From NCBI GenBank assembly GCA_021292105.1, contig CM037871.1, positions 20,518,057-20,582,056 on the forward strand: DNA of 64,000 nucleotides, given 5' to 3'. The notes under the pieces are model-generated. The model had not been told where the DNA came from. It made no database searches and worked only from the letters and a program-made list of their open reading frames with translations. The first letter of the stretch is position 1; each line of letters begins with the position of its first letter. The stretch comes from Anadara kagoshimensis. Its lineage: Eukaryota; Mollusca; Bivalvia; Arcoida; Arcidae. A program made the translations under genes and the position numbers. Below are positions 30,476 through 62,733 of the stretch, in pieces.

Positions 30476-31969
30476 TTACAGAAGACTGTATTTATGAAAG
30501 TCTGTCGTGGATTTGTGTCTATACCTTAACCAATCGACAAACTCCGATTTCCACTCTGGCATTATAAAATGTCTATGCTTGGATTCCTTCTGGAGCTCCG
30601 AGGTTAATGTTGTATTTGAACGGTAAAACATTGTATTTGGCGTCATATGTGTTCCTTTAATTGGCTCTCTACTCTTCTGTGTTGGAAGCTTGATATGTAC
30701 AACGAACTTCGGGCGGTGTGTTATATCTCTGGAAAATATAAGACAAACTTGTTGCTGAAAAACATGTATTTGACGATAGCAAAGACACCAGTACAAAAAA
30801 CGAGTGAAATCAGAAAACAAGACAATGTAAACACATATTTAGACAACTGATTCAATAAATCTCCCGACTTTGAACTGGTATATTTTATTTGGAGTGGAGT
30901 TATATAGTGTTTTATGCCCCAGTCAAGATTATTCCTCTTATATTGATGCAGTCAGTTCTTCAATGGTTGAGGAAGCAGGGGTTTTGAAAAAAACTCACCT
31001 AACTTTGGCTGGATCCAGAGTCCGTAACAAAACTTAAATCACAAAATGAAAGTTTAATTATTTTAGTTGTATTTAGAGTAACCAAGGCAACGACAAAACG
31101 TACCAAAAAAAAAAACTAGTATATAAAAACACAAAGTAATCTTGCAGTGAAATTTCTAATTATTACACTGCTAACTTTGGTTAAAAATATAATTAAAGGG
31201 ACTTAATTCATTAATTGTCTCCCTTTAATTATATTTTTGTGCTTAATTTACTTTTTCACCCTTTGCATACTTAAAGATGTATGCTGTAAAATCATGAATT
31301 TTCGCGGTATCCCAATTTTCGCTGTTTTCGTGGACGAATTTATATATGAACGAAATAGTGTATTAATAATAAACGTATAGCAAAGTATTGAGTATATGGT
31401 GTGTACTTAAACCACGAAATTTTTTTTTCTAAGAAACACGAAAATTTGACGCCACGAAAATAAGTGTTTTCACAGTATTATCATATAGAGTCAAACCTGG
31501 TCACCTTTAAATAATGGCCAACTGCCTATAAAGGCCAGTAGAACTGTATCCCAATTGTTCTTTATTCTTACTATTTGAACCTGTATATAAAGGTTACCTG
31601 CCCATAAAGACAATTTTTACCGGTTTCCATGGGCGGCCTTTATAGACAGGTTTGACTGTATTAGAAATATAGAGACAATCGATAAAAGTACAAGTACTTG
31701 AGTATAAACGTGAAAAAGTACAAAAATAACTTACTTTTTTACGACCTCGTGTTTCCATTCTCTTTCAAAGTCTTTGTCACACTGGATGGTTCTCCGTGGT
31801 GTTAGAAGTCCATCAGCGGCACTGGTAACTCGTTTAGGTCTACAAACATGACTCCGTTCTGTCCTCCTCTTTAACATCTGTACTGGAAGCTTCATAATAC
31901 TTAACTGGTGACCTCTGACCTCCGGTAAGGCTTTACTTTTTATCCACTCCTCCCTTAAGTTTGATGTAG
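30476..31969 (-). CDS. Unrecognised protein, last two coding exons (minus-strand gene)
   Basis: The penultimate exon 31735-31969 encodes TSNLREEWIKSKALPEVRG, LSIMKLPVQMLKRRT and PRRTIQCDKDFEREWKHE. It ends at a strong donor (AAAAAA|GTAAGT) in phase 2. The last exon, 30476-30728, follows acceptor TTTTCCAG, completes a Lys codon, and encodes DITHRPKFVVHIKLPTQKS, then GTHMTPNTMFYRSNTTLTSE, PEWKSEFVDWLRYRHK and a TAA stop. The join preserves frame. The product is basic and rich in Trp, Pro, Arg and His, with no signal peptide, membrane segment or known domain that I recognise. The 31969 boundary uses TGTCTTCAG after a long T tract. An ATG at 31979 is an alternative start if this is a first exon. 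Basic, Trp/Pro-rich proteins of this look occur among axonemal microtubule-lining proteins, but that is only an impression. Confidence 0.72.
30890..31030 (-). mobile_element. SINE-B fragment, inverted
   Basis: Minus strand: TGCATCAATATAAGAGGAAT and GACTGGGGCATAAAACAC form the SINE-B tail. The body is shortened. It lies in the last intron of the unknown minus-strand gene. Confidence 0.6.
31284..31475. mobile_element. MITE-E (TIR CTGTAAAATCATGAATTTTC)
   Basis: CTGTAAAATCATGAATTTTC near the left end and GAAAATTTGACGCC..GTTTTCACAG at the right are imperfect inverted repeats, with TA just outside the right end. A relative is at 62843-63083. It directly abuts a MITE-D copy. Confidence 0.65.
31488..31658 (-). 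mobile_element. MITE-D copy
   Basis: GAGTCAAACCTGGTCACC and GGCCTTTATAGACAGGTTTG plus ACTG are inverted termini flanked by TA. The interior TTGTTCTTTATTCTTACTAT and TTGAACCTGTATATAAAGG is the reverse complement of the 61586 copy. Confidence 0.82.
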
Positions 31970-32684
31970 CTGAAGACATTTTCAAAAAAAAATGAAAAAA
32001 TTCAAGTCAAATTTGAAAAAAATCTCATATGTCGGAGATTCAAACTTATCACAACTTGTCTGTAAAACGTATCTTCGTTTTTAATTAAAAGACTTGTCGC
32101 TACTCATCAAATGCATTAAAAATTGTCAAATGCGCCGACTAAAATTTCTATATTATGTTGGCACAAATTCTAAAATCGTTAATTTTGAAGGTCTTGTTGC
32201 TACTCAAAAAAATTAAAAAACTTAAATTCATTGAAACAAGTGTTACAAAAAATTAAAATTCATTCATTTTGAAGGACTTGTCCTTACTTGAGAAGATCAA
32301 AAATGCACAACTATAGTGATAAGCAGTCTTTATAATGAAAATCTAATCTAATCTAATCTAACACAGCGTTCGATTATAAATTTAAAGGGGTTGTTCTATT
32401 GTATGGTCGTTTTATTTGTTAACGATATTGCTCATGCATCGAATATTAATTGCAAATGAATTTATATGTTGTATTATTCTCTGAAAAATAATTATCTATC
32501 AGTAACATGAGAAATGCTTTAAAGTGTTTAAAGCTTAACCGTGTGATAAAAAAATTCGATACTAATTTAATTCTCCTAAATTGAAGACATTTATTTATTA
32601 TCCGTCAGGCGTATCCGAGAGAAGACCAACGATCTAAAATCGTAATTTTTCAATAAGTATAGATAGAATAATACAGTATAGAAA

Positions 32685-32913
32685 TCTACGGCGGCACAGA
32701 GATGTGATATATTTAGATTGCGGACTAACGCGAAAGTCACTGGGTGCTCACGCGAAAGCTTTCGCTTGTTCACGTAACAGTTATCGTACAAGAGCACGCA
32801 ATGTTATCAGTTTTGAGTGAGCACGGGATAGCTTTCACGTGGGCAATAGTTTTTCTTGTGCACCCAATATAAAAATAATTTTCATGTCACGTAACGGTAT
32901 GTGCCGCCGTAGA
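32685..32913. mobile_element. MITE with TIR TCTACGGCGGCACA
   Basis: TCTACGGCGGCACA (32685-32698) is the exact inverse of 32900-32913. The interior has inverted GTGAGCAC/GTGCTCAC and GCGAAAGCTTTCGC blocks. It is 229 bp with AAAT flanking both sides if the element is trimmed to CTACGG..CCGTAG. It is non-coding and GC-richer than its surroundings. Confidence 0.8.
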
Positions 32914-33109
32914 AATCGACTTCGAAAATAATACTCCAAAATCAAAGTTTTGTTGGAAATATTTTTTCAGAATATTTGATCTTTAAATCCGATCTGATTG
33001 ATCGCATGAAAGGATAAACTGACTGCCAGTCCTCTATAATTTTATATTGTGCAACAAATGAGAAAGGGGTTTTCCTTGCCGCGGGCCCCTACATTTTATA
33101 ATTCCCCCA

Positions 33110-33330
33110 GACGAAGTTTAGATGGATATACAATGTATAGGAACCATTGTGTCTGTCTGCACGTCAATCACAATATCGTGTCCGCTCCAAACCTCCCATG
33201 TCATTGGATGGATTTGAATCAAACTTGTAACAACTGTCAACTATTATGAGACGATGCACCGCATACCAAATTTAGGTGCATAAGCAAAGGGCCATGACCT
33301 TTTAACAAACTATGCAAGTTCTAGTTTTTT
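33110..33330 (+). repeat. Dispersed repeat with a TTTGAATCAAACTTG core
   Basis: TGTCTGTCTGCACGTCAATC, GGATGGATTTGAATCAAACT and GCATAAGCAAAGGGCCATGA resemble 37640-37800 (TGTCTGTCTGTCCGATCGTC, GATGGATTTTGATCAAACTT, ACATAGGCCAAG). I do not know the class. Confidence 0.5.
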
Positions 33331-33779
33331 AAGTACTCATGTTTAGTGTCAGTAAAATTAAATGGTTCTGATGGTTCAGCCTAGATTTGTTAGTTAGAGA
33401 AATAAAAGGGAAATCATGAATCATTCAATTAAAGTAAACTGGAACGTAAAGTATTACCTTTTCGTCTTAATGGACATGCTAACTCTCTGTTTGGTGTGTC
33501 ATATCTCAGGGTTGGTGGATGTAACCCGGGAGGGGCGGACATCACCTAAAATAATATCAAAATCAAAATCAACCAAAGAAATAATAATAATACTAGAAAA
33601 GTTTCTCTTTTCTCTTCCAGGATTCCAGGATAGTGACTGAAACGGCCATGTAGACACATTTTAATTGCTTGGAAATCAACATCATTCCATTTATATGAAG
33701 ATGTTGCCAGTTACAGACAAAATTCCAGTTTATAATTGCTTATCAAGGCATGCCTGTTGTGACACGGTAGGCCTCGGTT

Positions 33780-33990
33780 GTCGCGTGGTTTGAAGCGCGC
33801 ACTTACGGATCACAGCGCCTCTCACCGCCTAGGTTCGAATCCCACTTAGGTGAGAAAGTTTGTCAGTTCGCTTGCAGAAGGTAGTTGGTATTCTCCGGGC
33901 ACTCCGATTTCCTCCGTCTTCCCTGAACCTACAGCTTCGATATAAGTAATTTCGATATAACTAAAGCAACAGACCCCCACTCGGCTCCTA
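33780..33990 (+). mobile_element. SINE-B, well-preserved copy
   Basis: The head CGCGTGGTTTGAAGCGCGC and CCTAGGTTCGAATCCCACTT have A- and B-box character. The body is GTGAGAAAGTTTGTCAGTTC, TATTCTCCGGGCACTCCGAT and TTCCTCCGTCTTCCCTGAAC, then TTCGATATAAGT. The tail after 33960 is degraded. Confidence 0.8.
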
Positions 33991-34299
33991 CAGCAGCACG
34001 GTTTAAGCAAATTTGCTGGATTGCCAGGTCTAACAACAATGCAGGGTTGCATTAACCTAGTTCTCCTCTACTGGTTGGCTCGCTTAAAGCGTCGTGGAAC
34101 TGAATGATGTTAATGCTTATAGAGTGAGATAACGAATATGCAGTACTAGAATCGGGTGAAAGTTTGTTCTAAAAAATAAAGTCTGACAATAATCGTGAAT
34201 GTGATGTTTAACAACATGTAACCAATCTATACACCAAGCTTTTACGCTCCAAAACCATACATTACATTACCATTTCATTGCATTTATGTAAAGCCAGTT

Positions 34300-34490
34300 T
34301 CGGAATGGTAAAGAAAACCGGGGAATCGGATTAAACACGCTATTTTTTTTTTTTTTTTGGTAATGATGTTGTCGGAGAAAATCGCCTACCTTTGGCAGGC
34401 AAACTGACTAACTTTTTGGGACAAGAACCCAAGCCACAAGTGCGAGCTTTAGACCACTTGGTCACAGATCGCGAAGATCCGTCTAGCTAC
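34300..34490 (-). mobile_element. SINE-B copy, inverted
   Basis: The minus strand has a head with GGTTCTTGTCCC in the B-box position and GTCAGTTTGCCTGCCAAAGG, then the body GCGATTTTCTCCGACAACAT. A T-run at 34340 interrupts it. Confidence 0.6.
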
Positions 34491-35650
34491 CAGTGTAATT
34501 CATGATCGTCGCTGTGATCGGTAATCAATCGATCAGATGGCCACTTAGGCCCCACAATAAAGAAAGTGCAGAATCATACTAAATTGTTCCAAGGACGGGC
34601 GGCGCTCTGTGAGTTAAACCGTGAAAATTAAATAATCCCGAAGTTCTATCTAATGTACATGTATAAACAAAACCATCGTAATTTGATTCCGGATTACAAC
34701 TTACTTTCAAAAACAAAGATACCAACGTTTTACTATGTAATTAGATATAGCTTAAATCCACAGCAGATTTTTGTCTCTATAGTGTAGATCACATTATACA
34801 AGGTTGGTTAGATTTCAATGCCGACTTTTATTTCATTATTGCTTTATACCATGGTATTGTTTTTCTTTCGTTCTGTGAATCGAATGACTTCTTTTGTACG
34901 TACGTATCGAATATTGATATTGATTTCATGAATTCGTTTAGTACTTCCATGTCACTGAATTTTCTGTAAGGCTAAATTACATAAATGTTTGGTTTTCGGC
35001 CTCAATCACCCCTCGGCTTCGAACCCCTTCCCCGTATATTAATATTGTGATTGAAAGCTTACATGTGTGTCATCTGTAAAGCTTATTAGGTAAAATCAAA
35101 ATAACCTTTTCATTGATATCTTTTATAAATTCGTGTCACTGAATTTTCAGACTAAATTAAATAAATGTTTGGTTCTTAAGCCCCACCGTTTAACCCACCC
35201 TCGGTTTCGCCCCACACACCCTTCCCGTATGCTATTTTGTAATTTAAAGCTTATGTCATTTGGAAAAATAATAATGATGTTTTTAAAATTGATTTGGCAA
35301 AAATAAAAAATAAATAACCCACCTCGTGGCTGTTTTTGAAAGAAATCTGCAGAATATGAAAGCCCTGGAGTGCCAGAAAGATTAAAACATTTAAATATTT
35401 TCTTATCTTATATATATACGTAATCTCATAATCCCTTGACTTCGTAACTGTTAACATTGTTATATCACTAATAACCACATGAAACAATATTATTTCATAA
35501 TTTCTGACAATGTATTGAAAATGGTTAAACATGCCAAAATAAAAACATCAATAAGATTTCAATTGGATCACGGAATGAATACCGAGTTCCGAAAAGTGCA
35601 AGCACAAGCCTAACGTTAAAAAATATTCTGATTTGTTTTGATGATATTTT
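34491..35650. other. Intron or intergenic DNA, no gene seen
   Basis: Two related segments occur near 34965-35060 and 35135-35250: TTTTCTGTAAGGCTAAATTA / TTTTCAGACTAAATTAAATA, each followed by AAATGTTTGGTT and a CCCTTCCCGTAT block. This indicates a diverged tandem duplication of about 170 bp. No coding sequence seen. Confidence 0.5.
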
Positions 35651-35651
35651 A

Positions 35652-35674
35652 AAACAAATAAATAAATAAATGAA

Positions 35675-35709
<35 letters not shown>

Positions 35710-35962
35710 ATATAATAAATAAATAAATAAACGGAACGATCACTCATTTTCAAAGAGTGCAACAACACGCCTTTAATGTTAAAACTCTTGATCATGAAAT
35801 GTTGTGATACTATATATATGTTAAAATATTGCGATTTTGACAATCAACAAACAAACAAATAAATGAATGGATGGATAAATAAATAAATAAATAAATAATA
35901 AATAAATAAATAAATAATAAATAAATAAATATAAATAAATAAATAAATAAATAAATAAATGG
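35652..35962 (+). repeat. (AAAT)n microsatellites
   Basis: Two AAATAAATAAAT arrays (35652-35735 and 35858-35960) are separated by about 120 bp of unique sequence. Frames such as repeated YLFI on the minus strand are artefacts. Confidence 0.95.
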
Positions 35963-35994
35963 TTTAAAACCACACCAACAAGTCGTATACAGGT

Positions 35995-36205
35995 GTCTCG
36001 GTGGCCGAGTGATCACAACTCTTCTCATTGCCTATAGTGTTCGAATCCGACTCAGGAAAATCCCAGTGTTAGAAAGTCTGTCAGTTAACCTATTGAGGGT
36101 AGGTGGTTTTCTCTGGGAATTCTGATTTCCTCTGTCATCCTAGAACTGACCGTCTCTATATAAATCAAATAATATTGACAGGGCGTAAAACATCATTACT
36201 CCGGG
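35995..36205 (+). mobile_element. SINE-B, well-preserved copy
   Basis: The head has TCTCGGTGGCCGAGTGATC (A-box-like) and GTTCGAATCCGACTCAGG (B box). The body is AGAAAGTCTGTCAGTTAACC, GGTGGTTTTCTCTGGGAATT and CTAGAACTGACCGTCTCTAT. The tail is GACAGGGCGTAAAACATCAT. Confidence 0.82.
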
Positions 36206-36264
36206 TCACTCCCATAGATATAATTTCCTAAAAAGGACGTAAAATGAAAAATAAATTTTGTTAC

Positions 36265-36324
36265 CCTCAAATCTTCACTTGTATCTGGTGCTTTAATCCA
36301 CGACATAGCTGGTCGGCACTGTGA
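36265..36324 (-). CDS. Candidate upstream exon of the unknown minus-strand gene
   Basis: A 60-bp open segment follows acceptor CTTTCGCAG and encodes SQCRPAMSWIKAPDTSEDLR. It can end at AGG|GTAACA (phase 0) or, 14 bp earlier, at CAA|GTGAAG (phase 1, exon 36279-36324). Only the earlier donor joins in frame to the 31969 acceptor. The later one would need another exon between. Its start phase (0) fits the end of the exon at 56626-56755. Being so short, it could be coincidental. Confidence 0.45.
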
Positions 36325-36822
36325 CTGCGAAAGGAAAAAATAAGACAGAAATATTGAATATGGATATTCATAATCAAATCACATATTGTGTCTACGTGCA
36401 AACAACATCCCACTTAATAATACCAACTTAATAACAAAACATCGAAATATTGAACATTAGCGACACGCTTAAGTTGTAAACAGGTTAAAAGGATTTTTTT
36501 ATTTAAAAAAATAAAATGAAAACCCATTAAAACGGTGACGGTATAGAAAACAAGACTTTAACATTTGATCATGATTGATTTTAAATTACTACATTCAAGG
36601 TTTTGTATGTAAATTGAAGTTCGGAAACAATTCTAATGTGTTTAATGGTTTGTATACTGAATTGTTTGGGTTAGAGGGATGGTCGATGGATCATAAATTA
36701 TATCCATCATGAGATGCAAGTATAATTAGTTCTCATTTTTAATTGAGGTTAATGGAAGCTTTGTTAACTGCTTTTATAGAAAATGATTCCCACATATACT
36801 GTGTATGAGAAATATTGATATG

Positions 36823-36912
<90 letters not shown>
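36823..36912 (+). repeat. (GT)n(GA)n compound microsatellite
   Basis: About 25 GT followed by about 20 GA repeats. It directly abuts the tail of an inverted SINE-B, a common place for microsatellite birth. Confidence 0.95.
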
Positions 36913-36916
<4 letters not shown>

Positions 36917-37094
36917 TTAACACCCCAGTCAAAATTACTTAATCGAGACGATCAATTTTGGGTTGGGGAAACCGGAGTGCCAGGAGAATTTCACAGGCAG
37001 CCGAACTGATAATCTTTCTCGTGCTTGTCGTGCTAGGACCTCTCCCGAAGAGATTCTAATACAAGTGAGATGCTTGCTTTAGGCACTAGATCAC

Positions 37095-37100
<6 letters not shown>
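36912..37100 (-). mobile_element. SINE-B copy, inverted, between GA microsatellites
   Basis: The minus strand head is GTATTAGAATCTCTTCGGGA with the body TTCTCCTGGCACTCCGGTTT, and the tail is TTTTGACTGGGGTGTTAAAC. GA repeats lie on both sides (36872-36911 and 37098-37142), so a microsatellite was probably duplicated or interrupted at insertion. Confidence 0.75.

Positions 37101-37142
<42 letters not shown>
37098..37142 (+). repeat. (GA)n microsatellite
   Basis: A GAGAGA run of about 44 bp. Confidence 0.95.
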
Positions 37143-37147
<5 letters not shown>

Positions 37148-38399
37148 ATAAAACAATTATAATCATGCATATTGCTAGTTGTAGTTCATTTCAAATTTCA
37201 TTTTCTTACCGGTAAAGAGTAAATGACAAATAATTCACATAACTGACGTACATGTATTTTTGGTGTCAAAGTTTTAATTAATTTAAATTAGACCTTTTAA
37301 CCAATTCAAATTACACCTCTTTAGATCCTTAGTTCCCAGAGATAAAGACACAACACATTGATAGATCTTTTAACATAGGTATTTCAATAGAATTTTTTAA
37401 ATTATAATCACTGTGGAATTTATACATAGTATTTGCATTCATTTTTCAAGCGTGTTTATAATTGTTCGACATTCAAATTTTTTTTTTAAATCAACAACAA
37501 ATAATTTATTATGTTAACCTTAAGTTTAGTCTTAAAATATATAACACTGACTTTTTAAAAAGTAATAAATTATTTCAAAAATATGTGAGGTGACCTCTTC
37601 TACTCAAGCAATGGAGTTTTAGTGGGTACATGTAGGAATCGGCATGTCTGTCCTTCTACACGGTATGTCTGTCTGTCCGATCGTCCGAATATTGTGTTCA
37701 CCTCCTAACTTTCGTGTCTATTGATGGATTTTGATCAAACTTGACACAAATGTAAAACAACACGACACTCTGTGTCAATTAACAAATTAAGATACATAGG
37801 CCAAGCCCCCCCCCCAAAAAAAAATGCGGTGGTGGGGTATAAGTGTGCTTAACTGACGGTTCTAGTTATTTTGATTATCTATTGAACACCTTAAGTTCTG
37901 GTGACTAAGTTGAACATGTTGAAATAAACAAGGTGATCTATTTCAATCTATTGATTACCAAAACATGACATTTGACATAACGAAATCAATATCATATACA
38001 TATGTATACAGTTTATTCTGTCTTATCAGATTAACTTTACCCACTGTTTTCGAGTATTATTGTTGTATAGTTTTGTCTCTGGGATACCCCTAACTCCAAA
38101 ATAAATAAAGGCAGGAACTTGTCAATAACACGCATTTTAAATGTTAAATGTAAAACATGCTTTTTCTCTTTCGTGTAGACAGAGAAAATAAAATTAAATC
38201 ATATATTATAACTGAAGATTCAATGTATGAAATAGTATTACAAGATAATCTCTCTCTCTCTCTCATATAACATATATGCGTTTTGACAACGCAAACTTCG
38301 ATCAGGAAATAATAGAAATAAACAAAAACATCTCTCTCTCCTCGAATATAATATATGGATTTTAACGAAAACTTCGATCAGGAAACAATAGAAATCCAC

Positions 38400-38430
38400 A
38401 AAATCTCTCTCTCTCTCTCTCTCTCCTTCT

Positions 38431-38465
<35 letters not shown>

Positions 38466-38466
38466 G
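38400..38466 (+). repeat. (CT)n microsatellite
   Basis: CT repeats with single interruptions. Smaller CT tracts at 38250 and 38332 are each followed by a related GACAACGCAAACTTCGATCA or AACGAAAACTTCGATCAGGA segment, so the region is a diverged tandem duplication with a CT tract per unit. Confidence 0.85.
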
Positions 38467-38519
38467 TTTACTCACTTTCTTCCGTTCTTGTTAATATGAT
38501 TTACATGTAAACGCATCAC

Positions 38520-43074: not shown

Positions 43075-43440
43075 GCACTCTAGCTCAATCTTGTCAGTAT
43101 CTAGAGTGCTAACTTCATATATGGGAGGTAGTTGGTTCTAACACAGGTCTGACTAAAACTCACTTGAAAACAGGTAGTGACTGTTCTTTTACCAAACACT
43201 CAGCATTTAAAAATAAAATTAGTCATGGGGGTACTTCTGAAGAGACCTTAAAAACTGGTGCCCCATGTTAAGGCAGGTGTGGTACATTAAAGAAACCTTG
43301 CACCACATTGCCCTGAGCATACCGCAAAGGTAAAAATTTTTGCCACTTCAGCTATTTAGCTGGTGATGACTTGATATAAATGAAAATTTCTTGATTTGAA
43401 TATAAAACCCCATTCAATTAATCAATCAATCAATATAAAT
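43075..43440 (+). mobile_element. SINE-A copy upstream of KNOP1
   Basis: The head is degraded (CTAGCTCAATCTTGTCAGTA). The body is ACAGGTCTGACTAAAACTCA, GGTAGTGACTGTTCTTTTAC, TTAAAGAAACCTTGCACCAC and TTTAGCTGGTGATGACTTGA. The tail is TATAAAACCCCATTCAA followed by an (ATCA)n tract. Confidence 0.72.
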
Positions 43441-43587
43441 TTTCTTAGATAGACCAGACTTGTAACTTTTCTGATAATAAAATGGGGAAGTTCTTTGATT
43501 ATACCAGTATTAATTTTTGTTTGTACTTTTTATTGACAGGGTTAGTTGCCCGGACCTTGACTAAGTCATTTAGTATAAAGTGAAAAG

Positions 43588-44697
43588 ATGTCCGATGAAC
43601 TGAAAAAGACGAAAAAGAAGAAAAACAAGAAAGAAAAGATAGATGAGGCAGAGGACGAGAGCACAGAGATAGATAAAGATAGAAGTTTATGTAGAAAGAA
43701 AAAGAAAAAAGAAAAATTACGACAAGAAGATATAGTTACTGAAGACAAAAGCAGTGATTTAAGTGAAAGTCTAGAAAATGTATCTGAAAAACACAAGAAG
43801 AAAAAGAAGAAAAAACATAAAAATGAACTCCAAGACAAACCATCAGATGAAGAAACTGACTTAAAAGAGTCAAGTGAAATAAGCAAGAAGAAAAAGAAAA
43901 AAGCAAAAGAAAAAGCTGCATGTACAGAGGAAAATAGCAGTGATGTAAATGAAGATATAAAAGAGAAACATAGCAAGAAAAAGAAGAAAAAGGATAAGAG
44001 AGAAAAGCAGGATGCTGAGTCAGACAGTGAAGAAAAAACAGGATCAAATGAAGAGAATGGTCCTAGTAAAAATAAGAAGAAAAAAGTAACATCCGAAAAT
44101 GACACTAGCAATGAGTTGTGTAATATTGACAGCCCATCAAAAAAGAAAAAGAAGAAACACAAAAAACAAATTGATACAGAAGAACAAGAAAGCAAGGAGA
44201 AAAAGAAAAAGAAGAGAAAACATGAGGAAAAAGAAAAAGACGAGGATAACAGTAATTCTGACACATCTCCGAATAAAAAGAAAAAGACCAAACATGAAAA
44301 TACAAATTATGAAAACAAAACAAATGAATTGGATAATTCAAAGAATAAAAATTCAGAAAATGTTGTTGTTGGACAGTGGGGCTCAGCTTCTCTAGGGAGC
44401 CAAGAGAGACAGAATAAATTTTTGAGACTTCTTGGAGGATTTAAAAAATCTGAAGATTCAGAAAATGGAAAAACTAAATCGTTGTTTGGAAAATTAGGTT
44501 CAAAGGGAGGTAATTATGCCATGAATAAACAACAGGAAGACATTTATAAAACAAATATGGAGAATCAGTTTGAAAAAGCTGTTTCCTTGAAATTTCAGCG
44601 AGGGATCGGACTTGGTTTTGAAGCTCCGCCGGATGCAGGGAAAAAATTCTACATTGATACAAACAAGTCAAAATCTATTAAATTTGATGATGATTAA
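43588..44697 (+). CDS. KNOP1: Lysine-rich nucleolar protein 1 homologue
   Basis: One open frame of 369 aa starts at the first ATG after a likely acceptor (TATTGACAG at about 43540). Residues 1-258 alternate lysine blocks (KKKKKKHK-like) with acidic, serine-rich spacers (SDSEEKTGSNEENG), which is typical of nucleolar proteins and gives many basic localisation signals. The C-terminal domain (from about residue 259) is diagnostic: GQWGSASLGSQERQNKFLRL then LGGFKK, FEKAVSLKFQRGIGLGFEAP, and the end KKFYIDTNKSKSIKFDDD. These blocks match the C-terminus of vertebrate KNOP1 (FLRLMGGFK, RGxGLGF, KxFYIDxNxSKSxKxED), a region related to the SMAP small acidic protein family. The vertebrate protein is nucleolar and longer (about 450 aa), with the extra length in the repeat region. 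Its molecular role is unclear. The gene sits in the largest intron of the unknown minus-strand gene. Confidence 0.92.
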   Translation: MSDELKKTKKKKNKKEKIDEAEDESTEIDKDRSLCRKKKKKEKLRQEDIVTEDKSSDLSESLENVSEKHKKKKKKKHKNELQDKPSDEETDLKESSEISKKKKKKAKEKAACTEENSSDVNEDIKEKHSKKKKKKDKREKQDAESDSEEKTGSNEENGPSKNKKKKVTSENDTSNELCNIDSPSKKKKKKHKKQIDTEEQESKEKKKKKRKHEEKEKDEDNSNSDTSPNKKKKTKHENTNYENKTNELDNSKNKNSENVVVGQWGSASLGSQERQNKFLRLLGGFKKSEDSENGKTKSLFGKLGSKGGNYAMNKQQEDIYKTNMENQFEKAVSLKFQRGIGLGFEAPPDAGKKFYIDTNKSKSIKFDDD

Positions 44698-45104
44698 TAT
44701 TTGATTTTTGTAAATTTTATTTATTTACTTACTTGTTTACTTGATTACTCACTCACTCGCCTGTCAGAGTTGAGTAATTGTGTTAATGTTCCAGTCAAGA
44801 ATATTTCACTTATATCAATACCTATATTTTTGGACACCAAAAAGTGGAAGGACTCCTGCTTTCTGCTTATGTTTGAATCTTGTCAGGTTTGAACCCCTGG
44901 TCTCCAATTTATTGAACCTGCACTCAGCAACTATTGTATTTAGACTGCTGTATGGACATTATGAATGTTCTTGTTCCTATATTGTTTTATATAGTCAGTA
45001 TGCTGCTACCATGTAACCGAGTTTGGTTGCAAAACACAGTATGCTGTTGCATTTCAGATGTAGCTTGCAGCAACAGTCAAGATTGCTGTAACTTGGCAGA
45101 TGTT

Positions 45105-46275
45105 GCTTATAAAAGTATGTTGTCACCTTGCAGATGTTGGTTGGAAAAGTATTTTGTTACTTGCAGATATTAGTATGAAAAGTATGTTGTCACCCGGCAG
45201 ATATTAGTATGAAAAGTATGTTGTCGCCAGAAAGATGTTTGTTGGAAAAGTATGTTGTCACCAGGCATATGTTGGTTGGAAAAGTCTGTTGTCACAAGAC
45301 AGGCGTTGTTTGGAAAAGTATGTTATCACCTGGCAGATGTTGGTTGCAAAAGTATGTTGTCACTTGCAGATATTGGTGAGAAAAGTATGCCGTCACCTAG
45401 CAGATGTTCCTGGGGAAAATATGTTGTCACCTGGCAGCTATTAGTATGAAAAGTTCGTTGTTACCGGAAGATGTTGGTTAGAAAAGTATGTTGTCACCTG
45501 GCAGATGTTGGTTTGAAAAGTATGTTGTCACTGTCAGATATTGGTTAAGAAATTAAAGTATGTTGTCAACTGGCAGATGTTGGTTGGAAAAGTATGTTGT
45601 CACTTGCAGATATTGGTTAGAAAAGTATGCTGTCATCTTGCAGATGTTGGAAAAATTTGTTGTTACCTGGCAGATATTGGTTGAAAACGTATGTTGTCAC
45701 CTTGAAGATGTTGGTTAGAAAAGTATGTTGTCACCCAGCAGATGTTGGTTGGAAAAGTATGTTGTCACTTGGAAAATGTTGGATGGAAAAGTATGTTGTC
45801 ACCTAGCAGATGTTGGTTGGAAAAGTATGTTCCACCCGGCAGATGTTGGTTGGAAAAGTATGTTGTCACCCGGCAGATGGTTGGAAAAGTATGTTGTCAT
45901 CCGGCAGATAGTTGGAAAAGTATGTTGTCACCCAGCAGATGTTGGTTGGAAAAGTATGTTGTCACCCAGCAGATGTTGGTTGGAAAAGTATGCTGTCACC
46001 TGGCAGATGTTGGTTGGAAAAGTATGTTCCACCCGGCAGATGTTGGTTGGAAAAGTATGTTGTCACCCGGCAGATGGTTGGAAAAGTATGTTGTCACCCG
46101 GCAGATGGTTGGAAAAGTATGTTGTCACCTGGCAGATGTTGGTTGGAAAAGTATATTGTCATTGGCAGATGTTGGTTGGAAAAGTATGTTGTCACCCAGC
46201 AGATGTTGGTTGGAAAATAATGTTGTCACCTGGCAAATGTTGTTCGGAAGAGTATGTTGTCACCTGGTAGATGGT
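45105..46275 (+). repeat. 34-bp minisatellite, about 30 units
   Basis: The unit is GTTGGTTGGAAAAGTATGTT plus GTCACCTGGCAGAT. The best units lie at 45700-46240. Within it, a block of several units is itself duplicated: CCACCCGGCAGATGTTGG occurs at about 45832 and 46030 with the same neighbours, about 198 bp apart. Long frames of about 180 aa run through it in more than one frame because the period is not a multiple of three. They are not genes. Confidence 0.93.
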
Positions 46276-47620
46276 ACTTACAAAATATAGTGTGGATGTT
46301 TCTTGGAAGTATTATGTCATTTCATAAATATTCTTGCAAATCAGCAAATGTGCTGTCACCTGACAGATGTTAGTTTAAAAAAAACAACACCGATTTATTA
46401 TTCAGATGTTGGCTTGCAGAATGCAGCATGTTCTCGCCTTGTACATGTTGCTTACAAAACATTTTAGTATTATGTAACTGGCAGATGTTGGTTGAAAAAG
46501 CATTCTGTCACCTGGCAGATCACAGTATAGCTGTTCTTCTATCATTCAAAAGTTCTTTCCAACACAACAACACAATATGCTGTCTTCAGACAAATGTCGT
46601 GTGCTTGGCACAACTAATGTTTTTATTGACACTTGACATATATTTTGTATTTGCAAAACATCTTATGTTCTTACCTGGCAGACGGTTCTGCTAAACCGTT
46701 CAGTTACCAGACAGATCAGCGTACGTGAGTGCGTAAACCTGTAAGAATCTACCAGGATAACTTGAAACTTTTGTATAAATCATAGCAGCATCCGAGATGG
46801 TCGCTATTACTTTAAATAGAAAAACTAAAATATCGCTGATATGGTATAATGTATTTAACCATTCGGCTTACTAGTATACTGAAAATTTGAAATCTGCATA
46901 ATTGCGATGTGCAATAATTTGATATTGTTAATAAAATTGGACAGATATATATCGCAAGAGTTGTCTCGCTTGAAGTATCACTGGTTGATTGGTGAAAGAT
47001 TATTTCACTTGCATGGTTATCGTGGCGACCAGTTTTTGAATCGTAGAGGAAACCAGAGTACCAATAGAAACTTGACCACCGAGTGTGATTTGAAGCTATT
47101 CGTTGCTAGGCATATTTGTCGAAAAGAATATCTAAGAATAATCCATATCAATGAAGAATTTGACTGGGACGTACACAAAGTTTTTTTACCGCCAATATAG
47201 CAAAAAATAGCTAGACGCGAAAAAATCCCTTCTTATGGTAAAAAAGAAAAGAATCAGTCCGAACTAGTAGTTTAGTTCAAATTTAGTTGTAAGTACAAAT
47301 GAGCAAATGAGTTACTTAAAATGATTTGTTTGGAAAGGCCGTATATCGACTCATCATGAAAATGGTTTTGTGTACTCCCGGTATTTATAAAATGCCGACT
47401 TATTCATTGAGGCAATAAAGAGGCCGTAATATAATATAATGAGATATTATAAAATTCAGGAAAATCAAATGTTTGCACAGACAATAGTTCCATGTATTTG
47501 TATGATTATATACTCGGTAGAACTGTTTGAATTAAGAACGTTATTACACATTGTTTTTATGTACAATTATGTAAAATTCATGTACTCTTGGTTTTTTCTC
47601 TCCAAGTAACTACAGTTTTA
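46276..47620. other. Repeat-derived and unassigned DNA
   Basis: 46276-46700 contains decaying relatives of the 34-bp unit (TGGCAGATGTTGGTTGAAAA at 46470). 46975-47090 looks like an inverted SINE-B fragment (TTATTTCACTTGCATGGTTA, GGAAACCAGAGTACC). I see no gene. Confidence 0.45.
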
Positions 47621-53460: not shown

Positions 53461-53582
53461 CATTGGTTACAGAGGGGGACCGTACAACAAGAAGTCGCAT
53501 ATATTCCAATATAGAAAATTAACAATGTATTTTCTTATTAGTTTGATATTTTAAAACAAAGTATTATCGGTGTCTAAAGTAG

Positions 53583-53886
53583 AGTAATGGTGTTTAACGT
53601 CCAAGTCAAAAATATTTCACTTATATCGAGACGTCGTCAGCTATAGGCGAAGGTGCAGTAATGACTTTTGTCTTTGCGTTGCGCTTATGGCATTATACAA
53701 CAGGGTTCTTTAACATGCCAAGCCCACCATGACTTTCATTTCGTAATTCCGACTGCTTGACGAAAGAACAACCACTCAGTCACTACCCACTTTTAAGTCT
53801 TCGGTCAGACCCGGTTGGGGTTCGAACCTACGACCTCCGACTTACGAAGAGAGCACTCTAACAACCGAGCTACCTCAGTGGTACAA
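53583..53886 (-). mobile_element. SINE-A, complete, with target duplication
   Basis: Inverted SINE-A: the minus-strand head is TGAGGTAGCTCGGTTGTTAG with GTAGGTTCGAACCCC. The body and tail end at GACTTGGACGTTAAACACCA. GGTGTCTAAAG lies on both sides (53569-53579 and 53889-53899), an apparent target-site duplication consistent with LINE-driven retroposition. Confidence 0.88.
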
Positions 53887-55177: not shown

Positions 55178-55400
55178 CGGTACAGACCCGTCCATAGTTA
55201 CACACTCAGCTAACTAAAGAGCCGAATCGACAGGCAGTTAATCTAGGACTATTGTTAGCTATATCTCTACAGCTTTTCGGCAGCTGCAATCAATCTTTCG
55301 ACATGTTTTCTGTCACTAGCTATCAACATCTCTCGACTACCCTGTACTGCGCTTCGGTTTCGTTTCGTCAGCCCGGTGTTTTACTTTCTTCATATCTGAA
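55178..55400. mobile_element. Degraded MITE-1 copy
   Basis: CGGTACAGACCCGTCCATAG and CACACTCAGCTAACTAAAGA form the left end, and CTTTTCGGCAGCTGCAATC is interior. The right end is not clear. Confidence 0.5.
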
Positions 55401-55844
55401 TGATAGATTTTTTACGTCTTGCATTAAGCATTGGGCAAACGTGTTCACTGAGATTAGAAAATATTAACGTTCAGTATACACACACAATATGAGAAAATAT
55501 AGTGTAAAAATGTTTGCCTTAAGGTCTTAGAATTTAATTGGTTTCTTTAAATTTATTGACAAATATGAAGCCGTTTAAATAAAATAGAGAATAGTCTTAT
55601 ATTGGCACTATTCTCTACGTCATTAGTTGTCTTGACGCTGCTTTGATATCGCGATGGCGGCCAGTGTCGGAACATAAAAAGCATGGTCGGTCTAAAATAC
55701 TTTAGTCCATTATTAAACCCACGATCTACGCGTATGGTATTAAATTTAGAATTAGTTTTCTTCTTTTTCCTTTTTGCTCCAAAGATTCTGTGGTTTTTGA
55801 AATCCAGATGATTAAATATCTTTTCATGTTCCTTAGACTACACG

Positions 55845-56060
55845 CATGTCTAGTCTAGATAGCTCAACAGGAGATGCTTGTCCTTACGAAGCACCCGGCC
55901 TCACTTACCTTGTGTTTAACTTGGTAAGTCAATTTAAAAGTTTTACTCGGATTGTGATTTGGACATGGAATGGTATGCGTGTTTTTACTTTGCTTTGGGA
56001 TTGTGATTTCAACATGTTTATTTTTTACTTTGATTGTTGGATTGTTATCTGGACATAAAT
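55845..56060 (+). repeat. Repeat family C, 3' part with internal duplication
   Basis: GATAGCTCAACAGGAGATGC, CCTTACGAAGCACCCGGCCT, CACTTACCTTGTGTTTAACT and then three versions of GGATTGTGATTTGGACATGG follow one another, so the tail is amplified in tandem. Confidence 0.65.
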
Positions 56061-56625
56061 CGTTGTGTTTATTTTACGATGCTTTGGGATTTTTTTTTTT
56101 TTTTTGGGGGGGGGGAGTGGGGGATCGGTATATTTATTTTTGATTTACTATTTTTTTGAGCAAACTATATTTGTGTTCTAAACAATACACACAAAATGCT
56201 ATACATATATAAGGCGAAAAATAAGAACATAACTTTTCACGAGTCACTTACATTACGCATTTTATAGAACAAAAGAGTTCCATTAAAGGGAAATAATAAC
56301 GGCGCAACATTGTAATCTCTTCTAATGAAAACGTGCATCAATTGCAGGATGACAATGGTGTTTCATACAACACGACAAAAATAAAATAAATAGATTTGTC
56401 GATAATATATATTAACTTTTACTTAATAACTGTCTGCAAAAATCCTAGAAAAATGTCAAAAACTGAAAGTAAATGCACTTAAAATATGGAGTAAATCATA
56501 TCAAATTCAATAAATGATATTCCCTCGAGTAATTCACAACACTACGGATTGCCAATATATTTTCATAATTTGATTTTAAATGCTTACCATGTCATTCTAA
56601 ATCATCTGAAGGTATCAACGATTAC

Positions 56626-56755
56626 CTGGACTTGACCGCTGTTTCTTGGTTTAGTTGGCTGGTAAATAGTGCATTTTGTTTTAGAACCCGCTAAATGACC
56701 ACTTATAAACACTTTGTTTGGTACTAAATCGCCATAATTTTCGATGCTGTCATCT
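56626..56755 (-). CDS. Candidate upstream exon of the unknown minus-strand gene
   Basis: This 130-bp minus-strand exon follows acceptor TTTTACAAG and ends at CAG|GTAATC. It encodes DDSIENYGDLVPNKVFISGH and LAGSKTKCTIYQPTKPRNSG plus QVQ. It is open in one frame only. Its first base completes a Gly codon left by the exon at 62661-62733, giving RDIKI-G-DDSIENYG, and its end phase (0) fits the exon at 36265-36324. The composition looks like real protein, but I know no family for it. The linkage to the 30.5-kb exons is inferred from phase and strand only. Confidence 0.55.
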
Positions 56756-57164
56756 CTTGTAAAATAAATGTTATGTTAATAAGCAGGGACTGAATGATTT
56801 AGAGATTTGAACGATGAATGGACCATTATTACAGGCACTACGTTTTATTTCTTTAGGGTTTTGCTTTTGTATTCATATTCCACTTTTAAGAACGCAAAAC
56901 AGAGAAACTTGAATCAAATTTAGAGAAAACATTAACCGACATTCACATGCAATACAAACCCATCGGTCCATGTTTAAATAACATTGAAAAAGCAGACAAA
57001 AAACTCTGAAAATCACAAATTAGGGGAAGTGAGGTCGTGTGCTTCGGAAGGGTAGGCAACTCCTGTCTGACTATCTACATCCGCTTAGTGTGAAATCAAA
57101 AAACTGAGAATGAAAGAGACATGCAACTGCAGCGCGTTATAATTTTTTTCGAATTTTATTTTAA

Positions 57165-57990
57165 TCAGATATACTGATGATTTGACCTTAAGATTCAACA
57201 CACTGCAAACATACAACTCGTCGAATAACTCCTAACTTTGGAAGAACACTTGATAAAACTAAAAGTTTTCCTGCGACCTTGACCTTTCCGATATGACCTT
57301 TGTTCAAGGTCATGACACACCTTTGGACCATGAAGATTATTCATGTGAAGTTTTAGGACTAGTCTAAAGCAATGATGAGGTATGGCCCGGACACGATTTT
57401 ACACGAACAGACAGGCATGGTGATTCCTATATACCCCCTCAAACTAGTTTGCGGGGATATACTAAAATCCGTATCCAACCGGCGATTTTTAGTTTTCCGA
57501 GATCAAACAGATATTGGTATCCATAAATCGATATACTGACGATTTGACCTTAAGAATTTACCATATAGAGCAAAATAAAACTTATTGAATAACTCCCGAC
57601 TTTGGAAGGACACTTGCTAAATTAAAAATAATGTCCAATCAAATTCATTTTAATTTACAACGTTATGAGGCATCACATGGCACGAATGCGAACTCTATTG
57701 ATGAATAATGCCGATATACTGACGATTTGACCTTAATAATGTAACATATAATATGACGCAAAATACAACTGATTGAACAACTCCAAACTTTAAAAGGACA
57801 CTTGGCAAAAAAAAAATGTCCAATCAAAAACATTTTATTTAACAACTTTATGAGGCATCACGTGGTACTAATGCGAACTCTATTAATGAAATTTTGTAGT
57901 GTTCTAAGATCAAACAGATATTGGTATCCGTAAACCGATATATTGACGATTTGACCTTTAAGATTTTCATATATAGCACATAACTTTGAT
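57165..57990 (+). repeat. About 180-220-bp tandem repeat, 4 diverged units
   Basis: Units begin GATATACTGACGATTTGACC near 57169, 57530, 57713 and 57937. Shared later blocks include GAATAACTCC.ACTTTGGAAG, GACACTTG, ATGTCCAATCAAA and TTATGAGGCATCAC. A segment ATCAAACAGATATTGGTATC occurs at 57504 and 57911. Confidence 0.82.
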
Positions 57991-58703
57991 TTATAGTGAA
58001 ATCTTAACAATAGGATGATCAAAAGGAATTCAGACCATACTTCATCACAATGGGTCAGATCTCAAAGAGTTTATATCGGTATCTAATATCCATTTTAGTT
58101 CCAAGAATCTGATTTTGGGGTTTTATTGGACTAAATGCATCAATCCCCCAGCTTGAACTAATTTCCTTAAGAGGAATAAAACCACAAAGTAAACAAGAAG
58201 CAATTAAAAGTAAACAAAAACAAATCTGTACAAATCAGATTAAATGAATATGGTTTATTTTGTCGATTGTTAGGCGATTTTCTTTAACGATTTTTATTTA
58301 TGAGAGCCATTATTGGACTTATTTAAGCGCGGCTAAATGTAACAAATGTTAGAGGCTTACATTTGTAGTTCAAAATGGCATTAAGAAATTGTTGTTGAAG
58401 ATATGTACTTGAATATGAGCCAGTGAAACCAGGTCCCGGATTTTCCTTAACTTAAATTTAGCAAATTTTGGTAATTCTTACTTATGATACTGATGAATAT
58501 TTTTTTCAAAACTTAATGCAAATGTTTGAATCTATAAGTAATCTTAAAAATGACACCTTAAATTCCTGAAAATTTTGAAAATTAACGAATTTATAAAGAT
58601 TTGAAATGCAAGATTCAGGTTAAGGAAAAGCTTAGCTAAGGAAGGATTGTGAAACCGGGGTCAGGAACACTCAAGAACATACGAACAAATAAAGACAAGA
58701 AGA

Positions 58704-59025
58704 GTGAGTGAGTAATGGTGTTTAACGTTCCAGTCAAGAATATTTCACTTGTATCGAGACGTCGCCAGCTATAGGCGAAGGTGCAGAAATTTTGTTCTGA
58801 GCGTTGCAGGGTTCTTTAACGTGCCAAGCCCACCATGACACGGGACCTCGATTATTTTTAAGTTCCCATCCGAAAGGTCCGCGACTTTCATTTCGTAATG
58901 CCGATTGCTTGACGAAAGAACAGTCACTACCCACTTTCAAGTCTTGGGTCAGACCCGGCCGGGGTTTGAACCCACAATCTCCCACTTACGGAGCGAGCAC
59001 TCTACCAACTGAGCTACCGCAGTGA
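58704..59025 (-). mobile_element. SINE-A, complete, with target duplication
   Basis: Inverted SINE-A: the minus-strand head is TGCGGTAGCTCAGTTGGTAG with GTGGGTTCAAACCCC, then the full body and a tail ending at GACTGGAACGTTAAACACCA. ACAAGAAGA is present on both sides (about 58695 and 59029), an apparent target-site duplication. Confidence 0.87.
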
Positions 59026-59159
59026 AAACAAGAAGAAGTCTCCAGGGAGACAAATAAATCTGAGTTGTATCTAAGATTTGGCCTTGTAACCTAGACCCTT
59101 GACCTATGCGTCTCAACTTTGTATGCAACATGTCGTCTCACGTTGGTTTTTAAAATCTA

Positions 59160-59265
59160 TTCATAGCATGAAAGCACGAGGCTAAAAGATACTGGGGCGG
59201 ATGGGAAGACGGACAGACAGGGTGATTCCTATATACCCTCTAACCTTCGTTTGCAGGGTTATAAT
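59160..59265 (+). repeat. Dispersed repeat fragment (GGACAGACAGGGTGATTCCT)
   Basis: GGACAGACAGGGTGATTCCTA followed by a TATACCC block also occurs near 57405-57435 in the form AACAGACAGGCATGGTGATT, CCTATATACCCCCTC. The class is unknown. Confidence 0.5.
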
Positions 59266-59808
59266 GATAGCATTTTAAAATCTTCTGACTTGATATTTGG
59301 TCCATTGTCAGAATTTCGTTCAGTTAAAGTTTGCTTAACATCACATTTATTTTAAAACAAATGGTCCTTAGTACATATTATCGGAATATTATTATATAAT
59401 CTACTCAATAATCCATGTAATACGGTCATACAATAAAAATCGTATTGAATGAGTGTGACGTCATAAAAGCATACAAGTCATTCCAGAGTGACGTCACACG
59501 ATTGACCTAGTTCACAGATGTTTGTTTCATTTGACACTGTTTGTTGATTCTAATTTAAGCTGATACTTTTGTACTTTTCTTCTAAAAAGAAGATACATTG
59601 TATTTAAATTGAAAATGTTTGTTTTGTTTTTGTATCCTGCGGACAGACTATTGTTTACTTATAATATTTCAGCAGGATTACTTTTGGCGCATGTACACAG
59701 TTACGTGAATTCGAACTTGTTGTGTTTCGGTCAATCAGCTGTTTTCTTATAATGAGAAGACAAGTTTTAAATCTACGAAAAACCAGTTTTTATGGGATTA
59801 TATAATAA

Positions 59809-59967
59809 ATAGAATCTTGCATTCGTGTTTATGCAATATTGAATTTATTAAACTCGTTGAATAAAGTTTTATGCAACTCGCCAAGGCTCGTTGCATAAAA
59901 AATTATTCAACTCGTTTAATAAATTCAATATTACATAAACACTCATGCAAGATCCTCTATTTATTCA
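59809..59967. repeat. Foldback palindrome with 70-bp arms
   Basis: The left arm (AATCTTGCATTCGTGTTTAT, GCAATATTGAATTTATTAAA, CTCGTTGAATAA) is inverted on the right (TTATTCAACTCGTTTAATAA, ATTCAATATTACATAAACAC, TCATGCAAGAT) around CGCCAAGGCTCG. It is the same architecture as 971-1129, whose loop GAGGCTTGCC is similar when inverted. Confidence 0.85.
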
Positions 59968-60344
59968 ACTTAAATATTTTTTCACGAAAAGTTATGTCAA
60001 AATAAACAGAGGAATTGTTGATTCATCGCTTGGGAAAATATGGATTCATTTTAAATTTAAATTTTAATGTGCGTATAGAAGTGTCACATACTAGTACTTT
60101 TTTTAAAATTTAATCATAAAATACATTCAAAAAATGGTATATGACAGAAGATCCAAAAAAATAAGTGGGATCCCTTGTTTTTATTGTAAATACCGTTAAA
60201 CCTAGATTCATAGTCACCATTTGTTCATTAAAATTTTGGCATTTTAAACATGTTTGGCAATACATCAATGGCAAACGCATCAGAAAAGGATTTTTGAAGA
60301 CTTCAAAATACCGTGACGAAAAGCGAGTTTGCTAATCAAAAACA

Positions 60345-60505
60345 AATATACTAATCCATGTCCGAATCACACTCCAGAAGCAAAGTAAAAACTTTGGAAC
60401 TGACAAGTAAGGTTACACACGTGTGAACTTCCACCAGGGAAGTGAGGCCAGGTGCTTCGGAAGGGTTAGCACCTCCTGTTTAGCTAGCTACATACCCGCC
60501 ACGCT
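60345..60505 (-). repeat. Repeat family C copy, inverted
   Basis: TAATCCATGTCCGAATCACA, GAAGCAAAGTAAAAACTTTG, GAACTTCCACCAGGGAAGTG, AGGCCAGGTGCTTCGGAAGG and TAGCTAGCTACATACCCGCC form the inverted family-C core. A second inverted fragment is at about 57025-57080. Confidence 0.8.
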
Positions 60506-61029
60506 TAGTTATCGAAATGGATTTAAACCAGGCTTAACTGTAAGTTTAATTTGACAAATAAATGAAAATTAATATCTGGGATTTGATCTGCCTTTTATCA
60601 GCTTTTGGAATACTTTGATGTATACAAGAACTAATATTACAAATAAACATCACATACTGAAGATTAATTAAATGACGGAGGAAAAAAATCCTCACTTTTT
60701 AAAATAAAATCCGATTACCGCCCTGTCGTTTAAATGCTGGCTAAAACGATTCAAATTCTCATATCTCAAGCTCTGAATTATTGATGATTAATTTGAGTGG
60801 TAAGATATTTGACACGGTAACTAAGTTAAACAATGCTTGGTGAAGGTTACTTGTCATAAGCATGGGGATACACAGGGAGAGAAATGTCAAAAATGTTTAA
60901 ATGAATTAGATACCGACTATGTAAAGTGATAAATATCCAAAATAACAAGCAGATAAGATCTGGGGAAAATATTATATAATTTTGCGTAATATCTGTGCAT
61001 TGTGACTAAACCCTCTTAACAGAATCACT

Positions 61030-61033
61030 GAAT

Positions 61034-61072
<39 letters not shown>

Positions 61073-61075
61073 CTT
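61030..61075 (+). repeat. (TTTA)n microsatellite
   Basis: About eleven TTTA/ATTT repeats. Confidence 0.95.
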
Positions 61076-61585
61076 ACTTCCTTATTCATTTTGTGGGGAA
61101 CTGCAAGCAAAAGGGACATTAAATAAAAAAAAAATAAAATAAAAAATAAGAAGGGGGGCAATAAAGTATGTTATTGGTCCGAAACGAACATCCAAAAGGG
61201 TAATAAAATAAATTCTCATTTGGCAACAAAACATTTAAACACCTAATTGGAGGACAATACACCGATCCACAATATCGGTTTGGGTGTCGATTGTCAAGAT
61301 CACAATATTGTTGACAAGTATGATGTCTTTGTATCCAAAATTATCCAAAGTTCCATCTCAATTTTTATTTTAATTCATTGTGATTATAGCTAGCTAGACA
61401 GTAGGGCCTTATAGGCAAACAGTATTGACCTGTCCACTTGACCTTTTATTGGGAATATTCATATAGAAGAATCAACCAAATACATATGTAGTTTTAGGAT
61501 TTGCAGATATTAAATGCACACTGTACATGATGAGTGGTCTCATTATGAAAATGAAATCGACACGTGTTATCCCTTTTCATAAATA

Positions 61586-61764
61586 CAGTCAAACCTGTCT
61601 ATAAAGGCCACCCAAGGGAACCAGTGAAAGTGGCCTTAAAGGGCAGGTGGCCTTTATATACAGGTTCAAATAATATGAATAAAGAACAATTGGGATACAA
61701 TTCAACTGGCCTTTATAAGCAGGTGACCCTTATATAGAGGTGGCCTTTAAAGCAGGTTGGACTG
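61586..61764 (+). mobile_element. MITE-D reference copy, TA target duplication
   Basis: The left CAGTCAAACCTGTCTATAAA plus GGCCACC matches the inverted right end GGTGGCCTTTAAAGCAGGTT plus GGACTG. TA lies on both sides (61584-85 and 61765-66). It is 179 bp with no coding frame. The ends and TA fit the Tc1/mariner/pogo group. Confidence 0.88.
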
Positions 61765-62605
61765 TATTTAAAATAAAGGTCAAACAGGCAGGTCAATGTT
61801 TTTTCATACATTTCCGGAGTCCTCGACCGAAGTTAACGTGTAGTGAACGTTGAACGTATCTGGACAGTTTTCAAAGTTTTGCCTTTGATGTTTGCATTGA
61901 TTTGGACATTTACTGGTATGTCTGTTTTTGATTGTTTCTTCTTTATGGAATACTGGATACAGTACATGTAATTTTTAGGTTCAAACTTTGTGACGTCTTG
62001 TGGATATTCAAAGCTGTAATGAGAAAAAAAATTGGAAATTTTTTCTTTCTATTTTCTGCTCTAAAAATCATTTTAATTATTTATTATATCAAAGGAAAGA
62101 GAAAGAGCCAAGAGTTTATAATGGAAGAATTTCTTTTCCCATTTTCCCACGATGATGGATTAACTATGATCTAATGATTATATACTAGTATTATGTAGTT
62201 AAATGTCATATAATTTACTTTTTAAATTTCTTCAAAATTATTGGATTGATCGTGTCCAGTAAACACGATGTAGATTTTGATGTATTCATCTTTTCTGATG
62301 CACCTCGTTAGACAGATGATTGTTTTCTTTCGTTTCTCTTACACACACTGCAAACATAATTTGCTATCAAGAATAATTTTTTTCTTTATCTGTAGAGTTA
62401 AACCTGTTACATTTTTAAACCTATCATCGTACCACCATAACCTTTTCCCAATAAATTAAAGTAGTTTTGGCATTGGAATCCGCCTAGTGGAACTTTTCAA
62501 CTGATAGTTTTTACATGTTCAAGTGGCGCTTTAAATATATTGACCCAGCGAGCGAATCAATGCCATATTTGCATGTCAAGTAAAATGGAATCCAATATAC
62601 ATCAC

Positions 62606-62642
62606 CATCGTTATCATTATTATTATTATTATTATTATCATT
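62606..62642 (+). repeat. (TTA)n microsatellite
   Basis: A TTATTATTATT run directly downstream (in minus orientation) of the 62661-62733 exon donor. Confidence 0.9.
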
Positions 62643-62660
62643 AAGTCAACACTTACTCAC

Positions 62661-62733
62661 CCAATTTTGATATCACGAGTTCGAAAAAGAGTAGGCCACG
62701 TGTTGTTGCTTTTGAGGACACGATTGAAACGGA
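62661..62733 (-). CDS. Candidate upstream exon of the unknown minus-strand gene
   Basis: This 73-bp minus-strand exon has a strong acceptor (CTTGCTTTGCTCAG) and a consensus donor (TTGG|GTGAGT). Its single open frame reads RFNRVLKSNNTWPTLFRTRD then IKI, ending in phase 2, which the exon at 56755 completes in frame. The start phase shows that at least one exon lies further upstream, probably outside the window. The family is unknown. Confidence 0.5.

Follow-up and report, generated by a model that had tools for sequence, protein, structure and literature searches.

In vertebrates, KNOP1 and IQCK form a head-to-head gene pair. None of the titles that a literature search on KNOP1 and IQCK returned addressed the question treated here, and a search on KNOP1 and molluscs found nothing. 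A related arrangement is the gene nested in an intron of another gene; about 63% of the human nested genes lie on the opposite strand (PMC3192792). We analyzed a window of 64,000 nucleotides (nt) from the bivalve Anadara kagoshimensis (GCA_021292105.1, contig CM037871.1, here C15:20518057-20582056), for which an earlier note had proposed an unrecognized minus-strand gene of more than 32 kb with five exons (62661-62733, 56626-56755, 36265-36324, 31735-31969 and 30476-30728; in the following segments 1 to 5) that carries KNOP1 in a 20-kb intron. Its observations hold insofar as the segments and their splice-like borders exist, not insofar as they form one joined gene. Similarly, the interpretation stands for a real gene for a basic protein ending at 30476 and for a KNOP1 on the opposite strand, whereas the 32-kb host gene does not stand. 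The locus resembles oppositely oriented intron-nested genes in strand and neighboring position, but on present evidence KNOP1 does not appear to lie in an intron of the small gene. With the IQCK-KNOP1 pair it shares a gene divergent from KNOP1; the difference is that a tblastn search with a human sequence revealed nothing IQCK-like in the window.

The window very probably contains a minus-strand protein-coding gene of about 1.5 kb with two coding exons, a 1006-nt intron and a product of 165 amino acids, whichever of two candidate starts is used. It is predicted to be arranged as follows:

31735..31979, minus strand: coding exon 1, start codon ATG at 31979-31977, donor AAAAAA/GTAAGT; segment 31734-31979 of the blind scan described below.
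30729..31734, minus strand: intron, 1006 nt, phase 2, GT..AG, donor score 3.3, acceptor score 5.9.
30476..30728, minus strand: coding exon 2, stop codon TAA at 30478-30476; segment 30479-30721 of the blind scan.

Splice sites were rated with a simple score whose matrices were not trained on this genome. Because an in-frame ATG (31979-31977) lies 10 bases upstream of the acceptor at 31969, segments 4 and 5 alone make up a complete frame, with 165 amino acids, an isoelectric point of 10.2 and the terminal TAA at 30476. The intron holds a repeat that is also present at 61582-61745.

The evidence for coding comes from a second copy of the locus. We searched the animal's own assembly (1.115 Gb in 36 contigs) and found that most of the window occurs a second time on this contig, at a distance of about 1.1 Mb and in direct orientation (C15:19403825-19469165). 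The matches run on beyond the right edge of the window for at least about 12 kb (on the copy side to C15:19485000). In total, 51,745 of the 64,000 bases could be aligned, with 89.6% identity if gaps in the copy are counted as differences, and window blocks of at least 300 nt are 79–96% identical. Either a large segmental duplication underlies the copy, or the assembly has retained an alternate haplotype.

The two exons differ from their counterparts in the copy by 22 substitutions in 498 nt, 20 of them in third positions, and by no insertion or deletion (indel). All nine substitutions in exon 1 are synonymous third-position changes, and the 13 in exon 2 cause the only two amino-acid changes of the protein (I>V, R>K), corresponding to 0.0063 nonsynonymous (dN) and 0.221 synonymous (dS) substitutions per site. 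Random placement of 22 changes led to a mean of 16.3 amino-acid changes, and to two or fewer in 0 of 20,000 draws. Exons 31979-31735 and 30728-30476 therefore both combine an excess of synonymous changes with the absence of frame-breaking indels. They are 96.3% and 94.9% identical to the copy, compared to 81% for the intron, of which 643 of the 1006 bases were aligned, and start, donor, acceptor and stop are all preserved. Judging by this codon pattern, strong purifying selection maintains the gene in either copy of the duplicated block.

A blind six-frame scan of the window for synonymous excess ranked the two exons second and third:

4259-4729, minus strand: rank 1, score 13.6.
30479-30721, minus strand: rank 2, score 13.4, exon 2 of the small gene.
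31734-31979, minus strand: rank 3, score 13.2, exon 1 of the small gene.
44236-44694, plus strand: rank 4, score 11.0, KNOP1.
6695-6868, minus strand: rank 5, score 9.1.

Ranks 6 and 7 (plus strand, 8.3 and 6.9) mirror the small gene in antisense, and the background reaches about 6.4. In the 32–64 kb interval of the minus strand, no score exceeded 5.3, in a scan that depends on substitutions and to which invariant exons are invisible. Independently of the copy, no other two-exon model on the two strands equals 31979-31735 joined to 30728-30476 in size and quality. With strict cut-offs, which were set close to the model's own values, it was matched in 0 of 60 first-order and 0 of 150 third-order one-strand simulations; with looser cut-offs, a comparable model arose in 3 of 60 and 5 of 150, respectively. 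Segments 4 and 5 are beyond chance.

For the beginning of the gene, we infer that the ATG at 31979 is the probable start, in preference to splicing at the 31969 acceptor. Between the copies, the ATG and the seven bases after it are identical, despite an identity of 61% in the 31 nt just upstream. The scored coding segment also begins at 31979, with no strong minus-strand segment further upstream, where a very short or unchanged exon would nevertheless escape the scan. In the alternative arrangement of the same gene, 31735-31969 would be an internal exon, with the start supplied by a short coding exon further upstream that leaves one base over. This arrangement is possible but rather unlikely. 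An AG and a T-rich tract precede 31969 in both copies, the acceptor scoring 2.0 here and 5.3 in the copy, and the low identity of the leader (31980-32010) resembles that of a fast-changing intron end.

Several observations weigh against the two-exon gene as drawn. Given the scores of the 31969 acceptor, it is possible that an upstream coding exon replaces the first three residues, and an invariant one could have escaped the scan, since this also missed the nearly invariant exons of the UBE2Q-like gene described below. TESTCODE calls the frame of the small gene non-coding (0.63), below KNOP1 (1.10) and also below segments 1 to 3 when joined (0.90; segment 1 alone 1.22, segment 2 0.95). Compared to random open segments, the amino-acid make-up of exon 2 is unremarkable (38%) and that of segment 3 falls in the top 3%; exon 1 is protein-like (top 4%). 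A poly(A)-like ATTAAA at 30382 is absent from the copy, and no relative of the protein turned up beyond the animal's own genome in Pfam, NCBIfam, PDB or the viral and prokaryotic contigs searched. The two copies may, moreover, be alleles instead of paralogs, but the codon pattern would keep its weight in that case. The composition measures, which do not discriminate and in part favor segments 1 to 3 over the small gene, are outweighed by this pattern because of their noise at such lengths: among random open segments of 129–250 nt, the 95th percentile of TESTCODE lies at about 1.2.

The three remaining segments of the proposed host gene compare as follows:

62661..62733, minus strand: proposed exon 1 (segment 1), good splice scores, lacks the conservation of a coding exon and could at most be non-coding.
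56626..56755, minus strand: proposed exon 2 (segment 2), acceptor score -3.7, unsupported as a coding exon.
36265..36324, minus strand: proposed exon 3 (segment 3), donor score 0.5, out of phase with 31969, unsupported as an exon of the small gene.

Much of what had been described for the five segments could be reproduced. An AG precedes each of them, a GT follows the first four and the last ends in TAA; every segment has at least one open frame (segment 1 is open in a second frame as well), and the junctions 62661/56755, 56626/36324 and 31735/30728 join in phase. The junction 36265/31969, which had been passed over, is out of phase, because segment 3 ends on a whole codon and the acceptor at 31969 needs one carried base. 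The junctions of the five exons therefore do not all fit into one frame: upon concatenation, segments 1 to 3 are jointly open only in frame 2 and segments 4 and 5 only in frame 1. We considered a bridging exon between segments 3 and 4 that would restore the phase; the three candidates are all weak. Joining segment 1 (frame 0) directly to 31969 was rejected too: in the window the phase fits, but it is broken in the second copy because segment 1 is 13 nt longer there (86 vs 73 nt).

The comparison with the copy gave no supported coding constraint for segments 1 to 3. In the copy, the frame of segment 1 is broken by an insertion of 14 nt and a deletion of 1 nt. Segment 2 shows four synonymous and four nonsynonymous changes (D>N, V>E, K>I, N>H) without an indel, a constraint not significant against random placement (P 0.13); its identity of 93.8% falls between those of the adjoining 200-nt stretches, 98.5% on the 3′ and 78% on the 5′ side. 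Conservation of segment 3 does not exceed that of its flanks (96.7% vs 96.5% and 99.0%), and the comparison of this segment has little power because there are only two substitutions, one synonymous and one nonsynonymous. When joined, segments 1 to 3 yielded four PDB matches with E-values of 0.83–1 to EZH2-type chains, which are not credible, and no credible relative in Pfam or NCBIfam. Pfam searches with ten of the 191 minus-strand open frames gave a match for 36199-36378 at an E-value of 0.25, far below the cut-off.

The splice scores divide the three segments. Segment 1 (acceptor 6.8, donor 5.6) has the best sum among the open candidate exons of the minus strand, whereas the acceptor of segment 2 is very poor and the donor of segment 3 poor. 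As a positive control, all five fully scored exons of the UBE2Q-like gene have sums of 10.4–19.1; the sixth exon (17327) has an acceptor score of 2.3 and no assignable donor. At cut-offs that admit segments 2 and 3, we counted 176 candidate exons on the minus and 257 on the plus strand, compared to a mean of 161 (124–212) in 30 simulated sequences. Segments 1 and 4 can be bridged in phase by 233 exon pairs, 29 of which equal or exceed the score of the proposed pair. The splice-pair class of segment 1, in contrast, occurs once on the minus and twice on the plus strand, against a simulated mean of 0.0 and a maximum of 1 in any of the 30 sequences. Segment 1 alone is beyond chance as a splice-site pair.

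On the plus strand, opposite to the small gene as the earlier note had it, lies a Lys-rich frame:

43590..44697, plus strand: KNOP1-like coding sequence, one coding exon of 372 codons, Lys-rich, with a C-terminal SMAP domain.

The SMAP domain (PF15477, E-value 6.6e-14) occupies residues 267-346 of 372, after the Lys-rich region, as in a KNOP1 protein. We take the name from the Lys-rich part, as PF15477 alone would also fit small acidic protein. An acceptor at 43540 (score 6.9) precedes the start codon at 43590, which points to one or more 5′ untranslated exons further 5′; the KNOP1 promoter is therefore probably located further upstream. KNOP1 differs from its copy by five synonymous and 16 nonsynonymous changes and no indel. 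This high dN/dS may be expectable for a Lys-rich protein of low complexity, and the blind scan detected constraint in its C-terminal part.

Because segments 1 to 3 lack supported coding constraint and the phase is broken, KNOP1 is best read as a head-to-head neighbor of the small gene and not as nested in a 20-kb intron, on the far side of which no supported coding exon was found. The small gene would thus be arranged head-to-head with KNOP1, the start codons being 11.6 kb apart, and tail-to-tail with the UBE2Q-like gene. A transcript, rather than a protein, might still span KNOP1 if the small gene had distant non-coding 5′ exons, perhaps 62661-62733, which, besides its splice-site pair beyond chance, has a 3′ part and a donor (GTGAGT) that hardly differ in the copy. 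The near-identity extends past this donor, however, and is not exon-specific, and there is no particular link between 62661-62733 and the small gene, as opposed to any other gene. Such an arrangement appears improbable, and it is slightly more improbable still that KNOP1 is transcribed within an intron of a strongly conserved gene of a previously undescribed family, the transcript of which would start tens of kb upstream. The host gene exceeding 32 kb, with segments 1 to 3 coding and KNOP1 in its intron, is the least probable of all and can practically be dismissed: the splice-score sum of segment 1, the common frame of segments 1 to 3 and their composition values speak for it, but the phase mismatch with only weak linking exons, the indels in segment 1, the lack of significant constraint in segments 2 and 3 and the weak splice sites of both stand against it.

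The two-exon gene is placed between its neighbors in the order UBE2Q-like (plus), small gene (minus, 31979-30476) and KNOP1 (plus, 43590-44697), the first of these being:

8449-19029, plus strand: UBE2Q-like ubiquitin-conjugating enzyme gene, several exons.

Four of its joined exons matched the PDB entries 1zuo (E-value 1.4e-36) and 2qgx (UBE2Q1; E-value 2.3e-35), consistent with an E2-Q core. The exon at 8449, which presumably belongs to this gene, lies almost wholly outside the aligned part. Divergence between the two copies of the block is uneven, with a dS of 0.22 for the small gene and 0.026 for KNOP1, and with two substitutions in the 485 nt of six exons of the UBE2Q-like gene (8449-18068); gene conversion or mixed haplotypes may be responsible.

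Two further minus-strand regions, 4259-4729 and 6695-6868, show coding-type conservation against the copy. The first may resemble molluscan “short-chain collagen C4-like” proteins; the open frame 4256-4762 had no match in Pfam. A dispersed repeat family has members at 58956-59019 (minus), 24277-24618, 53582-53880, 11596-11896, 13445-13695 and 43094-43414, and one member sits just upstream of KNOP1. The copy at 58956-59019 matches the Rfam tRNA model with 30.4 bits, and the family is probably a tRNA-derived short interspersed element. Tandem arrays were found at 1894-about 4000 (period 47 nt) and, downstream of KNOP1, at 45070-46285 (period 34 nt); long open frames from the latter are probably spurious.

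The product of the small gene had been described as basic, rich in Trp and Pro and without a recognized domain. It is basic, with 34 Lys and Arg against 18 Asp and Glu, and is rich in Trp (four residues, 2.4% of 165), whereas its nine Pro (5.5%) are ordinary. The best Pfam match had an E-value of 0.095, below the cut-off of that family; NCBIfam gave no match up to an E-value of 1 and PDB none up to 10, and searching the exons separately against all three led to no credible relative. Among viral and prokaryotic contigs, seven stretches fit a peptide pattern, none of them related to the protein. The search of the animal's own assembly returned four exon matches, which are the two copies. We also considered IQCK as the identity of the gene, but a tblastn search of the window with a human sequence reached a best E-value of only 1.5, at chance level. 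Like orphan small protein-coding genes, the gene is short, has few exons, a conserved frame and no domain match; it is an ordinary orphan gene. As the protein is basic, short, Trp-bearing and free of known domains, it most likely lines an acidic surface, e.g., the microtubule lattice of cilia or sperm, or nucleic acid. A function as a ciliary or sperm microtubule protein is a tentative suggestion from these properties.

The analysis corrects the gene model of this locus, in which a probably phantom 32-kb host gene gives way to a compact two-exon gene under the clear protection of selection. With the second copy of the block, coding potential can be tested within a single genome, and sequences from further species are not required. 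The small protein is as yet unplaced and slowly evolving, which makes it a reasonable, if routine, target for annotation.

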